Source: Haloquadratum walsbyi J07HQW2 (GTDB lineage: Archaea; Halobacteriota; Halobacteria; Halobacteriales; Haloferacaceae). From it: a stretch of 64,000 nucleotides of DNA. Location of the stretch: positions 2,671,740 to 2,735,739 of the forward strand of contig NZ_KE356561.1 of assembly GCF_000415985.1 (NCBI RefSeq), written 5' to 3'. The notes under the pieces were generated by a model, which had not been told where the DNA came from, ran no database searches, and saw only the letters and a program-made list of their open reading frames with translations. Positions 15,370 to 23,036 of the stretch are shown in pieces. Position 1 is the stretch's first letter, and each line of letters begins with the position of its first letter. Made by a program: the position numbers and the translations under genes.

Positions 15370-15534
15370 ATCTCCCTTGTTGGGACCATCACAAATAAAT
15401 AATCCGAGTCTATCGGTTTTTCTGATTTGGGTAATATCAGCGCTCTCACCCGTGATTATTGCTGTTTTGTCCCGGTCAAATGGGGAGAAAGTATATCAGT
15501 GCTCCAGCCTTGTTTTTTGATAGCGACGCATTCT

Positions 15535-17790
15535 ATGAGTAACGATACGGACTCAGACGAGAACCCTCCGGCAGAGGGCAGCGGCTTTACTGATGAGACG
15601 CCCGACTCGCCACAGCACGATGGCGATGGGCACTCTGAGGAATATGCCAACGTCGAAGCCGGTACTGATACTGATACTGGCGCCAACGCAGGTGCCAACG
15701 GCCGTGGCGATGATCTCGGCCGCGAAGACCACGATGATCGCGGTGACGGCGACCGCGACCGTGGCCATGATAGTTATGATGACTCTACTGACACGGTTGA
15801 TCCAAGTGACACCACAGATGGCAAGAATGGATCAATCGAGGAACTCGGCAGCGATGTTGAAGTTGACGCTGAGGTTAAAGATGATGTTGGCGAAGAAGAC
15901 CTTCTTGGTGGACTAAAAATCGATTCAACAGCTGAGATCGATGTTCCAGATCGTCTTGTTGACCAAGTCATTGGACAAGAACATGCACGAGACGTCGTCA
16001 TGAAGGCGGCAAAACAGCGACGCCACGTGATGATGATTGGCTCCCCTGGAACAGGGAAGTCGATGCTTGCAAAAGCAATGTCAGAACTCCTTCCAAAAGA
16101 AGAACTGCAAGACGTTCTTGTCTATCATAACCCAGACGACGGCAACAATCCAAAAGTTCGAACAGTTCCGGCTGGTAAAGGTGACCAGATTGTTGATGCC
16201 CACAAGGAAGAGGCACGCAAGCGGAATCAGATGCGTTCATTCCTCATGTGGATCATCATTGCAATTGTTCTTGGATATTCACTTATTATTGCTGGACAGA
16301 TTTTACTTGGGATCCTTGCTGCCGGTGTCATCTACCTCGCGTTCCGCTATGGATCACGCGGCGGAGATGCGATGATTCCAAATCACATCGTTAACAATGC
16401 TGACACGACGACGGCACCATTCGAAGACGCAACAGGCGCTCACGCTGGCGCACTTCTTGGAGATGTCCGTCATGACCCATTCCAATCAGGTGGGATGGAA
16501 ACACCAAGCCACGATCGTGTTGAGCCTGGGTCAATTCATAAAGCGAATAAAGGTGTTCTATACGTCGATGAGATCAATACGCTTGATATTCGCAGCCAAC
16601 AGCATCTGATGACCGCTATTCAGGAAGGCGAGTTTTCAATTACTGGGCAGTCTGAGCGATCCTCAGGTGCAATGGTTCAGACGGAACCGGTCCCGACAGA
16701 TTTCATCATGATTGCTGCGGGGAATCTTGATGCAATGGAGAACATGCATCCTGCACTTCGTTCACGAATCAAGGGATACGGATACGAAGTGTATATGGAT
16801 GATACAATCGAGGATACTCCGGACATGCGGCGGAAGTATACTCGATTTATTGCTCAGGAAGTCAACAAAGACGGTCGACTTCCAGATTACGATGCTGAAG
16901 CAATTGAAGAAATCATTCTTGAGGCTCGTCGCCGCGCCGGTCGAAAGGGACACCTCACGCTTGAACTGAGAAATCTCGGGGGTCTTGTTCGAGTTGCTGG
17001 TGACATTGCACGTGCCTCAAATGCTGATTACGTCAGACGAGATCATGTGCTGCAGGCGAAGGGACGTAGTCGCTCGATCGAGCAGCAGCTTGCTGATGAT
17101 TACATCGAGCGTCGTAAAGACTACGAACTGCAGGTATCTGATGGATATCAGGCTGGTCGCGTGAATGGTCTTGCCGTGATGGGTGAAGACTCCGGTATTA
17201 TGCTTCCTGTGATGGCAGAAGTGACGCCGTCACAAGGTCCAGGTAAGGTCATCGCGACTGGAAAGCTCAAAGAGATGGCACAGGAGGCTGTTGATAATGT
17301 CTCTGCGATTATTAAGAAATTCTCCGATGAGAACATCTCTGAAAAGGACATGCACATCCAATTTGTCCAGACAGGACAACAGGGTGTCGATGGTGATTCC
17401 GCGTCGATCACTGTTGCAACAGCGGTCATTTCAGCGCTTGAAGATGTCGGCGTCGATCAGTCACTTGCAATGACAGGCAGTCTCTCCGTTCGTGGTGATG
17501 TCCTTCCAGTTGGTGGTGTCACTCACAAGATTGAGGCAGCTGCAAAATCCGGGTGTGAGCGAATCATCATCCCAGCAGCAAACTCACAGGATGTAATGAT
17601 TGAAGAAGAATACGAAGAAATGGTTGAAATCATTCCTGTTTCGCATATCAGCGAGGTGCTTGATATTGCACTTGAGGGTGAAGCTGAGAAGGACTCACTC
17701 GTTGCTCGACTGAAGAGTATCACTGGGTCAGCGCTTTCACAGGGCAAGAACGAAACAGTCTCTGGACCATCAAACCCGAATCCACAGTAA
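15535..17790 (+). CDS. lonB: Membrane-bound ATP-dependent protease LonB
   Basis: A 751-residue archaeal Lon protease. The ATG at 15535 is preferred over upstream starts because the sequence then begins with an acidic, disordered tail (residues 1-110) usual for haloarchaeal LonB. The Walker A motif GSPGTGKS includes Lys175. Two transmembrane helices follow ([20 protein letters not shown] and the next hydrophobic run), inserted in the AAA+ domain and characteristic of LonB. The protease domain has the catalytic dyad Ser622 (GDSAS) and Lys665 (THKIEAA), 43 residues apart as in bacterial Lon. It degrades damaged and regulatory proteins at the membrane; in Haloferax it controls carotenoid synthesis and is essential. 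Monocistronic, divergent from nadM. Confidence 0.95.
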
Positions 17791-17923: not shown

Positions 17924-18979
17924 ATGCCACAATGGGCAACCTTCGCTGGATTCACTTTTCTCATTACTGCTGGATTGTTGATTCTTTCACATGCTTCACG
18001 CGGAGCAATTGATACTGGCTCAGATGCTTCCACAGCAGCTACTGAGACGGGTTCGGACCCAGATCACCCGCCTCAAGAGCTTTCTGAGCCTGTAATCACA
18101 TCCGACTCGAGACTAAATCGACATCACGATCATAATACCGCATCATCAACTAGTAATCGAAGCAACGCGACCACTGCCGGTGTCAGCTCTGACTCGGGGC
18201 AAGCATGTGATGATGATCTCTTGAGTACCGCCGAGTCTGCACACCCGTTTGATATGGGTGATCATACTGTAAGTGCAGACGATACCACCACTGCAGAGTC
18301 AAATCATACCAGTAATCCACACGAGACTTATCAGGAATCAGAAAGCGAGATACACGCGAAATTATCACAACCAGATCTCTCAACAACAGCGTTACTTGCT
18401 AATGTCACCGTGTCACAGGGATTATTTGCGATGTTGCTGATAATTGGTGCATGGATTGCGCGCATCCCTATCTCAGCGTTTGGCATTGGAACAGGTCCGA
18501 CAGGAATCCTCGTGCTTGCTTTGGGTACCGGTACAGGCATTATCCTTTATATTGGCAATGAGTTTGGTTCAACACTTGGTGCACATTTTGGACTTGGTGA
18601 AGGTGAAGCGCTCCGGTCTGCACTTGCTCCTGAGACGTCAGTCGAATGGGTTGTACTTCTTGTTGTCGTATTACCGATTATCGCAGGCTTTGAGGAATTA
18701 TTATTCCGTGGCGCGCTCATCGGCGTTATTGCCGTTGGATATAACATCTCACCGTGGACCTTAGCAATTGTATCGTCTATTGCATTTGCGCTTGGACACG
18801 GTGCACAAGGACGGATCGGAGTTATTGTGACGGGAGTGTTTGGATTCATTCTTGCGGCTGTGTTTATTATAACTGAAAGTCTTCTTATTGTTATTATCGC
18901 ACATTACTTTGTTAATGCGCTTGAGTTTGTTATTCATGAGGGGTTTAATATTGAGTTTTATTCAGTGTCAGACGCGTGA
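17924..18979 (+). CDS. CPBP-family intramembrane metalloprotease
   Basis: A 351-residue membrane protein. One helix at the N-terminus is followed by a hydrophilic, low-complexity stretch (about residues 27-150), then a block of helices with the CPBP/Abi signature: Glu257-Glu258 and Arg262 (EELLFRG), FALGHGAQGR with a catalytic His, and AHYFVNALEF with a second conserved His and Asn. This family includes CAAX-prenyl proteases and bacteriocin-immunity proteins. The natural substrate in haloarchaea is not known. The unusual feature is the long non-conserved linker. The SRPBCC gene starts 36 bases after it and may be cotranscribed. Confidence 0.85.
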   Translation: MPQWATFAGFTFLITAGLLILSHASRGAIDTGSDASTAATETGSDPDHPPQELSEPVITSDSRLNRHHDHNTASSTSNRSNATTAGVSSDSGQACDDDLLSTAESAHPFDMGDHTVSADDTTTAESNHTSNPHETYQESESEIHAKLSQPDLSTTALLANVTVSQGLFAMLLIIGAWIARIPISAFGIGTGPTGILVLALGTGTGIILYIGNEFGSTLGAHFGLGEGEALRSALAPETSVEWVVLLVVVLPIIAGFEELLFRGALIGVIAVGYNISPWTLAIVSSIAFALGHGAQGRIGVIVTGVFGFILAAVFIITESLLIVIIAHYFVNALEFVIHEGFNIEFYSVSDA

Positions 18980-19015: not shown

Positions 19016-19465
19016 ATGACGCGAACTGATGTCACAGCAACAACACAGATTGATGCCTCTGTTGAAGTGGTCTTCGAATACTTGGACGATCCACGAAATC
19101 AACCAGAGTTCACCCCGAGTTTAACACGCTCCGAGCCGGTTGAAGAACTTTCAAACGGAGGAAAACGTGTAGCATACACATACTCAATGGCTGGAATTGA
19201 TCTCACCGGTGAAATTACTGCAACAACATATGAGCCTGAATCAGCCATTCATTGGGAGATGGACGGCGATATTACCGGCGAGATACAGTGGAATTTTGAG
19301 GCTGATGAAGGAACAACAGTATTTTCATACACTGCCCGGTATGACATTCCTGTTCCAGTTCTTGATTCAGTAGTAAAGCCATTTGCTGAGCGATATAATG
19401 AACGTGAACTTAATACCGCGCTGGAGAACCTTCGTACTCGTATCGAAGCTGATTCTATAAACTGA
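19016..19465 (+). CDS. SRPBCC-fold protein (polyketide cyclase/START-like)
   Basis: A 149-residue protein with the START-like helix-grip pattern: an N-terminal strand VTATTQIDASVEVVFEYLDD, the PRNQPEFTPSL turn, several beta strands (HWEMDGDITGEIQWNFEADE), and a long C-terminal helix (AERYNERELNTALENLRTRIE). Proteins of this fold bind hydrophobic ligands in a central cavity. The ligand cannot be deduced. Confidence 0.85.
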   Translation: MTRTDVTATTQIDASVEVVFEYLDDPRNQPEFTPSLTRSEPVEELSNGGKRVAYTYSMAGIDLTGEITATTYEPESAIHWEMDGDITGEIQWNFEADEGTTVFSYTARYDIPVPVLDSVVKPFAERYNERELNTALENLRTRIEADSIN

Positions 19466-19572: not shown

Positions 19573-20039
19573 TCAGACCGTTTCAATCTGCTCTATGTTC
19601 CGAAGTTCTGTGATGACATCTGGTGGGGCTCCGCTTGGTGCATCTCGAATCCGATGGTCAGGGATTATTAGTGGAATAGGATTTTCACCAAGCGCACGCT
19701 GAGCGGTTGATCGGTCATCTGTATCATCTTCGTCAAGCCCTGCCATTCGAAGAACGCGATCGAGAGTTACTGCTTCACCATATGGAATATTTCGCGTCGC
19801 TTCAAGCACGCGTCGTTGGTCTGTCGGGACAGTAAGTGCAATATCAACGTCTGAAAGGTGATCTGTGTCACCGTTAAGATACGCATCGATACGGCAAGTA
19901 ATGTATGGTCATCATCAGCATCACTCGGAACTGTCGATTGGAAATCAACACTCATGATCCGTCCACTCGCGACGCCGATTGTAATAACTCGGTTGATTTG
20001 TGTAAACTGTCGAGCGAAAACGCCAACCTCTGTACTCAT
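19573..20039 (-). pseudogene. MGMT/alkyltransferase-like protein gene with a frameshift
   Basis: The start MSTEVGVFARQFTQINRVITIGVASGRI and the region up to DADDDHTLLAV are in one frame. From about 19886-19895 downstream the homologous sequence continues in another frame (DAYLNGDTDHLSDVDIALTV, then LEATRNIPYGEAVTLDRVLR). One missing base would explain this. The second part resembles the DNA-binding domain of O6-alkylguanine alkyltransferases, including IPYGE, but the acceptor motif PCHR reads PDHR (IIPDHRIRD), so the alkyl-accepting cysteine is absent, as in alkyltransferase-like (ATL) proteins. Either a recent pseudogene or a sequencing error; intact homologues would decide. Confidence 0.7.
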
Positions 20040-20092: not shown

Positions 20093-20103
20093 GCCTTATG
20101 TGC
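20093..20103 (+). promoter_or_regulatory. Probable TATA box of the trpCBA operon
   Basis: GCCTTATGTGC lies 25-35 bases before the trpC ATG, the distance expected for an archaeal TATA box with a leaderless or near-leaderless transcript. It is judged by position and base content only. Confidence 0.4.
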
Positions 20104-20127
20104 AATTCAGTTCATTAATGAACATAG

Positions 20128-20928
20128 ATGGACGCTAGTGACGAATCTCTTGCACCTGCGGTGCAATCAATTCTCGCGGCTGCAAAACAGCGTACTGGTG
20201 GTACATCCCGATGCACTGTTGATGCAGCATCATTTCAGTCAGCTGTTTCGACGACAGAGGCAGCCAATCAGATTCCGATTATTGCGGAAATTAAACCGAC
20301 CAGTCCAACAACCGATGGAACGCGAAATGATGATCCTGTTGCGCTTGCATCAGCAATGGTTGAGGGTGGCGCAACTGCATTATCAGTATTAACAGAACCG
20401 GAACACTTCGGCGGGTCAGTTGATACCCTCACTCAAGTACGCAAGGCGGTTGAAGTCCCAGTTCTTCGAAAAGACTTCATTATCCGTGAGTCTCAACTTG
20501 ATACAATTGCAGCTGATATGGTCCTTCTCATCGCACGATTTCTTGATACTCCAGAGACAGATTCACTAGCGAGCGTATATGAAGCAGCGAAAACCCGCGG
20601 ATTCCAGCCACTCGTTGAGGTTCACACGCGTGATGAACTCGAGCGCGCAATCGATATTGGTGCCAGTATTATTGGGATCAATAACCGTGACCTTGGTCGT
20701 CTTGCGGTTACTCTCCAAACCTTCGAACAGTTGGCACCAGATGTCCCTGATGATGTAACGCTCATCGCTGAGAGTGGTATCAAAACCACTGAAGATATCA
20801 AACGAATGCGTGCGGCTGGAGCTGATGCACTTCTTATCGGGACGGCTATTATGAACGGGGACGTACAAACAAACACAACACGGTTCACAACCGCAACGGA
20901 CGCAACAACGGAGACACATAGATCATGA
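20128..20928 (+). CDS. trpC: Indole-3-glycerol phosphate synthase
   Basis: A 266-residue TIM-barrel enzyme that closes the indole ring of 1-(2-carboxyphenylamino)-1-deoxyribulose 5-phosphate in tryptophan synthesis. Signatures seen are [11 protein letters not shown] with the catalytic Lys, [10 protein letters not shown] with the second Lys, [31 protein letters not shown], and [13 protein letters not shown] with the phosphate loop [10 protein letters not shown]. Length is normal. It is the first gene of trpC-trpB-trpA; its TGA overlaps the trpB ATG (ATGA), so translation is coupled. The other trp genes are not in the window. Confidence 0.95.
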
Positions 20929-22172
20929 CACAACGATACGCAGACGGGAAATTTGGTGAATATGGCGGACAATACGTTCCAGAAGCATTGATGCCTGCCA
21001 TCGAGGAGTTAGCTGACGCGTATGAACGCTACGTGTTAGAGAATGAAGATGGATTCATGGATGAGTTCCGAGCACGACTTCGGGACTTTGGTGGTCGACC
21101 AACACCGACGCAGTACGCAGAACGTCTTTCAGAACGACATGGCTGTGATGTTTATTTAAAACGTGAGGATCTTCTTCATGGTGGTGCACACAAGCTTAAT
21201 AATGCCCTTGGACAGGCATTATTAGCAAAGTACATGGGTAAAGAGCGAATCATCGCCGAGACTGGTGCCGGTCAACATGGCACAGCGACTGCGATGGCAG
21301 CTGCACATCTTGATATGCCCTGTGAGGTCTATATGGGTGAACGTGATATTAATCGTCAACGACCGAACGTATTTCGGATGCGACTCAATGGATCGGAAGT
21401 AACACCTGTCACAATCGGTCGTGGAACACTCAAGGAAGCTATCTCCGAGACGATGCGTGACTGGGCAACCAACGTTGAGGATACACATTACATCATTGGT
21501 TCAATTGTCGGTCCACATCCATTCCCGTCGATGGTTCGTGACTTCCACTCTGTTATTTCTGAGGAAGCACGTCGGCAGGTACGTGAACAAACCGGCGGAC
21601 TTCCTGATGCTGTGTTGGCGTGTGCTGGTGGAGGATCGAACACAATGGGGACATTTGCACACTTCATTGACGACACCGATGTTGATCTTTATGCTGTTGA
21701 AGCAGGTGGCTCAAGTCTTGAGGTTGATGAAGACGCCGGTGTTGCACCAAATTCAGCCTCATTATCAACCGGTGATGAGGGCGTCCTTCACGGTGCCCGG
21801 ACAAAGTTACTTCAAGATAGTGACGGTCAAATTATGGAAAGTCATAGCGTTTCTTCAGGACTTGATTATGCTGGCGTTGGTCCGGAGCTTGCACATCTTG
21901 TCGATACGGACCGCGTCACTCCGGTGAATGTCGATGATGAAGCGACACTTACTGCATTCCATCGCGCCTCACAGCTAGAGGGTATTATTCCAGCACTTGA
22001 GACTGCACATGCTTTCGGATATCTTGAAGAACATGGTAATGCGCTCGGTGATAGTATTTTAATCAATGTTTCTGGTCGGGGTGATAAAGACCTAGAAATA
22101 GCGATTGAGGAGACCGCCGAACAGGATATTGACATTGCACCTGATATGTCTGAATTCGCTGGAGGACTCTGA
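20925..22172 (+). CDS. trpB: Tryptophan synthase beta chain
   Basis: A 415-residue PLP enzyme that joins indole and serine to make tryptophan. It begins with the TrpB1-type sequence [20 protein letters not shown], has the PLP lysine Lys90 in [12 protein letters not shown], the EAGAGQHG-like motif [26 protein letters not shown] as the PLP phosphate loop, and SGRGDKD at the C-terminus. These mark the alpha-binding TrpB1 subgroup, in keeping with the adjacent trpA. It lies in the middle of the trpCBA operon, with no gap to trpA. Confidence 0.97.
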
Positions 22173-23036
22173 ATGTCTGGGGGCAATACACGGGAGCAAG
22201 GGCTTGCTTCCGCATTTAGTGGTGGTCCGGCATTTGTTCCATATCTTGCAGCGGGTGACCCGGATTATGAATCTGCGCTTGAGTATGTAGAAGCACTCGC
22301 ACGCGGTGGTGCTGATGTCATTGAACTTGGGCTACCCTTCTCAGAGCCGATTGCCGAAGGACCGACAATTCAGAGTGCTGTTGTCCGATCGCTTGAGGCG
22401 GGGATGACTCCCGAGCGGTTTTTTGACTTTGTCGACGATCTCGACGTTGACCCAGATGATACTCCGCTCGTATGCATGACATATTATAATCTCATTTATC
22501 AGTATGGTGATGAAGAGGGTCCGCGACCATTCGTCAAACGCGCAGCAGATATTGGGCTTTCGGGATTTGTTGTCCCAGATCTGCCTGCTGAAGAATCAGA
22601 CCCACTCCGGGCGGCTTGTAATGAATTTGATCTTGATCTTGTATTTATTGTCGCTCCAACAACCAAAGGTGAGCGACTTGAGACAATCATGTCACAAGTA
22701 TCAGGTTATGTCTATGTACAGGCCCGACTTGGTGTGACCGGTGCCCGTGAAGATGTCTCTACACAAACTGAATCAAGCCTCTCTCGACTTGATGCATATG
22801 ATGTTCCAAAGGCAGTCGGCTTTGGAATTAAGACCGGAGAGCATGCTGAACGAATTGTCGCCGGTGGTGCTGATGGTATCATCGTTGGCAGTGCATTGGT
22901 TGATATCGTTGCTTCGGGTACTGATGCCGGCGACTCAGTAGCAACAGTTGCTGACCGACTTGAAACAAAGGCTCGTGAGCTTACAGATGGAGCTCAACGA
23001 GGATATGAAAAACGTATCCCTAAACCAGACACATAA
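22173..23036 (+). CDS. trpA: Tryptophan synthase alpha chain
   Basis: A 287-residue TIM barrel that cleaves indole-3-glycerol phosphate to indole and glyceraldehyde 3-phosphate and channels indole to TrpB. The catalytic Glu51 stands in [11 protein letters not shown]. The segment [12 protein letters not shown] has Glu58 and Glu62 where the E. coli enzyme has Asp56 and the catalytic Asp60. [26 protein letters not shown] and [13 protein letters not shown] (phosphate site) are also present. The ATG follows the trpB TGA directly. The Asp-to-Glu change keeps an acid and may be normal for haloarchaea. Confidence 0.95.

Follow-up and report, generated by a model that had tools for sequence, protein, structure and literature searches.

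A split gene in the genome of Haloquadratum walsbyi J07HQW2 raises the question of whether a relative of the DNA-repair enzyme MGMT that has neither an unbroken reading frame nor an alkyl-accepting cysteine is a repair gene in decay or a member of a protein family with a different role. The gene lies at 19573–20039, on the minus strand, of a 64,000-nucleotide stretch of contig NZ_KE356561.1 (positions 2,671,740 to 2,735,739; referred to here as the window). Its reading frames, tblastn alignments and a match to the Pfam family PF01035 identify it as a gene for a protein with the fold of MGMT, the O6-alkylguanine-DNA alkyltransferase (AGT) fold. Proteins with this fold are familiar as suicide repair enzymes or as damage sensors, the alkyltransferase-like (ATL) proteins. 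We refer to the relatives of the window gene as the PDHR family. The account that we favour, with middling confidence, is that the family is a pseudoenzyme with the AGT fold, present across the class, and that its pocket has been remodelled and would bind something other than alkylated DNA.

Read in all three frames, the minus strand encodes MSTEVGVFARQ...DDDHTLL in one of them and RIDAYLNGD...IETV* in the one that follows. Intact homologues from Haloquadratum walsbyi J07HQW1 (G016, locus L079) and from genome G015 align by tblastn in neighbouring frames, with query residues 1–48 at 20039–19896 (75% identity) and residues 50–155 at 19893–19576 (84% identity). The first piece (19896–20039, minus strand; 48 codons) is homologous to the N-terminal domain of these relatives and matched no Pfam family. 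The second piece (19573–19893, minus strand, with its stop codon at 19573–19575) comprises the end of the N-terminal domain and the C-terminal domain, and matches PF01035 at 5.3e-08 (33 bits, cut-off 27). DNA alignment places a net loss of one base, and no long homopolymer, where the two frames join. A profile built from eight homologues (A1) recovers both pieces in their own genome (G000, locus L168) at 2.7e-52 and 2.9e-17, so their membership of the family is not a matter of chance. The acceptor-site motif, at 19662–19651 on the minus strand, translates as PDHR, with Asp replacing the alkyl-accepting Cys of AGTs. A first-pass annotation of this DNA had joined the two frames into one MGMT-domain protein with PDHR in place of PCHR, a reading that would have fallen had the second frame lacked homology to the MGMT fold. 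The reading holds: that homology is present, and the fold itself is modelled on the intact J07HQW1 homologue (see below). The model TIGR00589 (cut-off 46.4 bits) is missed by both the second piece (28.1) and the J07HQW1 homologue (26.4), which pass the broader PF01035. The split gene is the only PF01035 match found in G000, so no canonical MGMT was found there.

The first-pass annotation had also proposed that a cysteine-less subfamily would exist if intact haloarchaeal homologues carried PDHR as well. We sampled 194 Halobacteria genomes from 65 genera, of which 171 contributed to the reading of the motif and 23 were left out. Loci of 183 genomes were fetched and 182 yielded a copy, counting the second piece of the window gene; G142 (L130) was excluded as the place fetched was another weak PF01035 match without a family open reading frame (ORF). 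The motif is PDHR in 176 of the 182 genomes, PSHR in three (G018, G073 and G140), GDHR in G111 and PTHR in G191; PCHR, expected if the annotation had been wrong, was found in a single genome, G036. Asp therefore occupies the acceptor site in 177 genomes, and a class-wide subfamily that is cysteine-less in 181 of the 182 genomes read exists. Within the genus, each of 17 genomes, that of the window included, has one protein at PF01035 E ≤ 0.01, and all 17 are PDHR. The family profile matches 194/194 genomes and 65/65 genera, the weakest match being 3.4e-29 (G036), and PF01035 also has matches in all 194, with 183 above its cut-off. Strong PF01035 rows (at least 62 bits, counted by eye) number 70, each in a different genome and G036 among them, and the next row scores 50.6; the 30 best-scoring proteins are all PCHR. 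In 124 of the 194 genomes there is no PF01035 row of at least 62 bits. In a phylum-wide sample of 148 genomes, the family profile scores 102–271 bits in 24 Halobacteria (178 and 64 for the two pieces of the window copy), and the best score among the 124 non-Halobacteria is 56, the six best of these being PCHR proteins.

We then compared residues in an alignment of 69 family members with 30 canonical haloarchaeal and 6 methanogen-type MGMTs, in which the G036 and window copies were set apart and loci L087 and L141 are one contig. Residue positions are in human numbering, assigned through known motifs without an aligned human sequence, and residue roles follow passages of PMC10779285 and, for S. 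solfataricus OGT, of PMC4605297. The acceptor column holds Asp in 65 family members, Ser in 3 and Thr in 1. Tyr114, which is present in 36/36 of the other MGMTs, has been replaced throughout (Val 45, Leu 13, Ile 5, Ala 3, Thr 2, Cys 1, Tyr 0). None of the 69 has the active-site loop, which takes up six to seven columns, and mostly P-[SG]-A-[AT]-P stands in its place. A recognition-helix Gly that is invariant in the 36 other MGMTs is Arg in 59/69 family members, and the mean net charge of the recognition helix and loop is −5.0, compared with 0.0 in the 30 canonical haloarchaeal MGMTs (a descriptive comparison of related sequences). The column of the Arg finger, Arg128, is unconserved, with Arg in 12/69. 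By contrast, the shell of the pocket, comprising Asn137 (the hinge), Pro140, His146, Arg147 and Glu172, is invariant in 69/69. The Arg-finger position is Val or Ile in 30/30 of the canonical haloarchaeal PCHR proteins (L019–L048), although these retain Cys, Tyr114 and the loop; their residues mark them as repair-type MGMTs without an Arg finger.

The J07HQW1 homologue, modelled with AlphaFold2 together with ten homologues, is predicted to have the two-domain AGT fold. The five models have predicted local distance difference test (pLDDT) scores of 88.0, 86.9, 74.0, 62.9 and 61.4, the best with a mean pLDDT of 88.0 and a predicted template modelling (pTM) score of 0.81. Its best matches among solved structures (Foldseek, VIA-align) are two-domain OGTs, led by 4zyd_A (Z 17.3 over 142 residues, 2.3 A, 22% identity), whereas ATL structures match over the C-terminal domain only (Z 7.9).

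The origin of the family was approached with a quick tree of 86 rows, which used 10 of the 30 canonical haloarchaeal MGMTs and omitted the acceptor and loop columns. The PCHR protein of G036 (L104/L172) branches outermost in the family, followed by the PSHR protein of G140 and then the rest (96, 80 and 95 in the Shimodaira–Hasegawa-like approximate likelihood ratio test, SH-aLRT), an order to be read with caution: columns are few, long branches meet, G036 itself sits on a long branch and seven outgroup rows have an unusual composition. The G036 protein groups with the PDHR clade and shares its N-terminal domain, acidic recognition helix and Arg at the Gly position, but differs in that Cys, Tyr and the loop are still present. 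It resembles an earlier stage at which the acceptor was still in place, as represented by one genome on a long branch, and if G036 alone can be trusted, remodelling of the DNA-binding helix would have come before the loss of the acceptor. These intermediate states rest on single genomes, the taxonomic families of G036 and G140 being sampled by one and three genomes, respectively. Because the three PSHR rows require three changes, Asp was replaced or reached more than once. At L104 5192–6279 in G036, the PCHR relative overlaps the end of the upstream ORF by 4 bases; that ORF presumably resembles a TATA-binding protein.

On the account that we favour, the window gene is the local copy of a family that descends from a two-domain O6-alkylguanine-DNA alkyltransferase and is no longer built as one. 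Sequence and model show that the acceptor Cys, the flipping Tyr and the active-site loop have gone, that there is no conserved Arg finger and that the shell of the pocket (the hinge Asn with Pro, His, Arg and Glu) is retained; the remodelled former alkylguanine pocket may bind a ligand of low molecular weight or a partner protein rather than damaged DNA, with the Asp and the newly acquired P-[SG]-A-[AT]-P segment as putative contacts. Several points weigh against this account, the first being that its ligand-binding step is one that we infer. Asp is not strictly needed, because four genomes have Ser or Thr and one has Cys. The conservation of His and Glu may be structural, because E. coli Atl keeps both, and the loss of the Arg finger says little by itself, because the canonical haloarchaeal MGMTs have Val or Ile there in every case. 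Repair may be compatible with an acidic helix, because G036 combines one with Cys, Tyr and loop; haloarchaeal proteins are also acidic in general.

The frameshift poses a question apart from function. Of 208 loci searched with the profile, some genomes contributing several, 207 had a match, and a single ORF spans at least 139 of the 152 model positions in 206 of these. Only the window's own copy, L168, departs from this, so the frameshift is private to it. The ratio of nonsynonymous to synonymous substitution rates (dN/dS) is 0.069 against G016 and 0.063 against G015 for the second piece, and 0.114 and 0.088 for both pieces joined, compared with 0.158 for the intact pair G015–G016; these values indicate purifying selection on the gene in Haloquadratum. 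For the first piece alone (48 codons) the ratios are 0.314 and 0.172; over these codons the intact pair gives 0.265. A story of a dying gene, in which the frameshift and the Asp belonged together, was rejected: the two are unrelated, the Asp occurring throughout the class and the frameshift in this copy alone, and the second piece is strongly constrained. Among well-matched ORFs in the surrounding 100 kb, 2 of 36 from G016 are split in G000, the PDHR gene included, as is 1 of 31 from G015 (0/22, 1/9, 0/23 and 1/6 in the reverse comparisons), so frameshifts are not a general feature of the G000 assembly. The data fit a recent mutation and a local consensus error alike, and we regard it as evenly balanced whether the assembled consensus is wrong and the gene of the organism intact. 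An error is favoured by the strong constraint on the second piece, by the intact reading of all other loci and by the fact that the nearest named relative is a metagenome-assembled genome; it is disfavoured by a frameshift site that is not a homopolymer, by the presence of only one other split ORF among the 36 and by the weaker constraint on the short first piece. A genuine mutation of very recent date would account for the data just as well.

Among other functions, the family could be an Asp-type ATL, which would bind O6-alkylguanine lesions in DNA, leave them unrepaired and pass the site on to nucleotide excision repair. ATLs are the known cysteine-less relatives of AGTs, as described in passages of PMC10779285, and the loss of the acceptor Cys with PxHR kept, the invariance of the Asn hinge and pocket shell, and the finding of no other PF01035 protein in G000 are all consistent with such a role. 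We nevertheless consider it unlikely. According to the same passages, ATLs mostly have Trp at the acceptor site, are without the AGT N-terminal domain and retain the Tyr and the Arg finger, the residues by which both AGTs and ATLs grip DNA. E. coli YbaZ, the one ATL sequence compared, retains Tyr, Arg, Gly, His and Glu but lacks the Asn. The PDHR family has neither the Tyr nor a conserved Arg, carries Arg in most members where the Gly would be, and combines an acidic recognition segment with both AGT domains. The first-pass annotation had measured the missing cysteine against ATLs; the absence of the cysteine stands, with Asp in its place class-wide, but ATLs are a misleading yardstick because they keep the DNA-binding Tyr and Arg that are absent here. 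Judged by its residues, the PDHR family is nearly the opposite of an ATL, having kept the pocket shell and lost the DNA grip.

The neighbourhood of the gene suggests a further role, as a helix-turn-helix (HTH) regulator of tryptophan biosynthesis that is divergent from trpCBA and binds an intergenic box. In the window, the PDHR gene lies head to head with what we take, from homology and operon order, to be trpC (20128–20928, plus strand), followed by a presumed trpB and by trpA, which has a PF00290 match (together 20925–23036, plus strand). Just before the trpC start is a TGTGCA-n14-TGAACA box (20099–20124, plus strand), an operator-like element of the TGTACA type. On the other side are an SRPBCC-like gene adjacent to the PDHR gene (19016–19465), a gene for a CAAX-type membrane protease (17924–18979, plus strand) and lonB (15427–17790, plus strand, start uncertain); these three names are presumptive, those of lonB and the CAAX protease being given without a family search. 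Of 70 loci, 59 have trpC upstream of the PDHR gene in divergent orientation, and in 56 of these the midpoint of trpC is no more than about 0.8 kb away; lonB and the CAAX-type protease gene are convergent with the PDHR gene in 46 and 45, respectively. The SRPBCC-like neighbour occurs in only three loci (L079, L088 and L089), all from Haloquadratum. In six loci without trpCBA (L099, L104, L125, L128, L131 and L144), no common neighbour was seen by eye, and no family search was made.

In the intergenic regions inspected by eye, a TGTACA-type box stands where trpC begins, and this repeat is conserved across haloarchaeal families. Its copy at 20099–20124 is a candidate tryptophan operator, and we take TGTACA to be the target of TrpY. 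The box pattern, with at most one mismatch, matched 15 of 22 genomes, compared with 3 matches in 2 genomes for a backward control; in G000 and G015, one-mismatch matches also occur elsewhere in the genome. In 11 genomes trpCBA lies away from the PDHR gene. Seven of these have the box, always 1.2–2.3 kb from trpA (with one mismatch in three of the seven) and never beside the PDHR gene; the pattern was missed in 7 of the 22 genomes, including the other four of the 11 (G186, G151, G191 and G147). Since the box stays near trpA where the genes have parted, we assign it to the trp genes and not to the PDHR gene, and as this operator-like box travels with trpC we do not favour a regulatory role for the PDHR protein and hold it to be quite improbable. 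G036, which has PCHR, also has the box. Other candidate regulators are available in TrpY, which binds TRP boxes and has homologues in haloarchaea (passages of PMC6737238), and in LrpA2, a proposed regulator of aromatic amino-acid genes in Halobacterium (passages of PMC4162585), and the HTH of AGTs is described in passages of PMC10779285 as binding DNA without sequence specificity. As trpA is present in 36/36 genomes tested, loss of the tryptophan pathway does not explain the Ser, Thr and Cys variants.

A more radical idea, which we regard as far-fetched, is a new kind of enzyme in which Asp would act as the nucleophile and the conserved pair of His and Glu would activate water, such that hydrolysis of the Asp alkyl ester would yield, within an AGT fold, a multi-turnover dealkylase for a small non-DNA substrate in place of a single-use repair protein; the model for this idea is the logic of haloalkane dehalogenases. 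That the family consists of pseudogenes decaying throughout haloarchaea, as the loss of catalytic residues might suggest, has almost nothing to recommend it given its presence in 194/194 genomes, the single ORF at 206/207 loci and the purifying selection in Haloquadratum.

The PDHR protein has probably taken on a new job, and the pseudoenzyme account remains the one that we favour. One archaeal class keeps an AGT-fold protein stripped of its acceptor, DNA grip and loop, in which the pocket shell stays. The protein occurs in more genomes than the repair enzyme (194 compared with 70 of 194), and a job for the AGT fold outside DNA repair is pointed to because the grip has been discarded and yet the protein is kept more widely than the enzyme. 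Labelling PDHR genes as MGMT would credit haloarchaea, Haloquadratum included, with a repair activity that they may lack. The family is undescribed in the titles, abstracts and open-licence PubMed Central text (without supplements) that were searched, and the passages retrieved from PMC7776575, PMC7690668, PMC2841640, PMC8305020, PMC5626843 and PMC3287961 contain no mention of it.

Three known systems come closest. With the repair enzymes AGT, MGMT and Ogt, represented by the OGTs of S. solfataricus (4zyd) and S. tokodaii (1wrj), the PDHR family has in common PF01035, the full-length two-domain fold and the Asn hinge, Pro140, His146, Arg147 and Glu172; it differs in having the acceptor Cys in only 1/182 genomes, in lacking the flipping Tyr, a conserved Arg finger and the loop, and in an acidic recognition helix with its Gly mostly Arg. 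The canonical haloarchaeal MGMTs (PCHR) belong to the same fold family and the same class of organisms, but they are separate in the tree, have strong PF01035 rows in 70/194 genomes where the PDHR family reaches 194/194, and keep Cys, Tyr and loop (30/30; Tyr158 is Phe in three). With the ATLs, such as E. coli YbaZ and S. pombe Atl1, the family shares an AGT C-terminal domain without the acceptor Cys and the His-Arg of PxHR; ATLs differ in having mostly Trp rather than Asp at the site, no N-terminal domain where the family has two domains, and a retained Tyr and Arg finger. As Cys, Tyr and loop are lost and there is no conserved Arg finger, yet both AGT domains are present, the sequences and the model indicate that by its defining features the PDHR family is neither an alkyltransferase nor an ATL.
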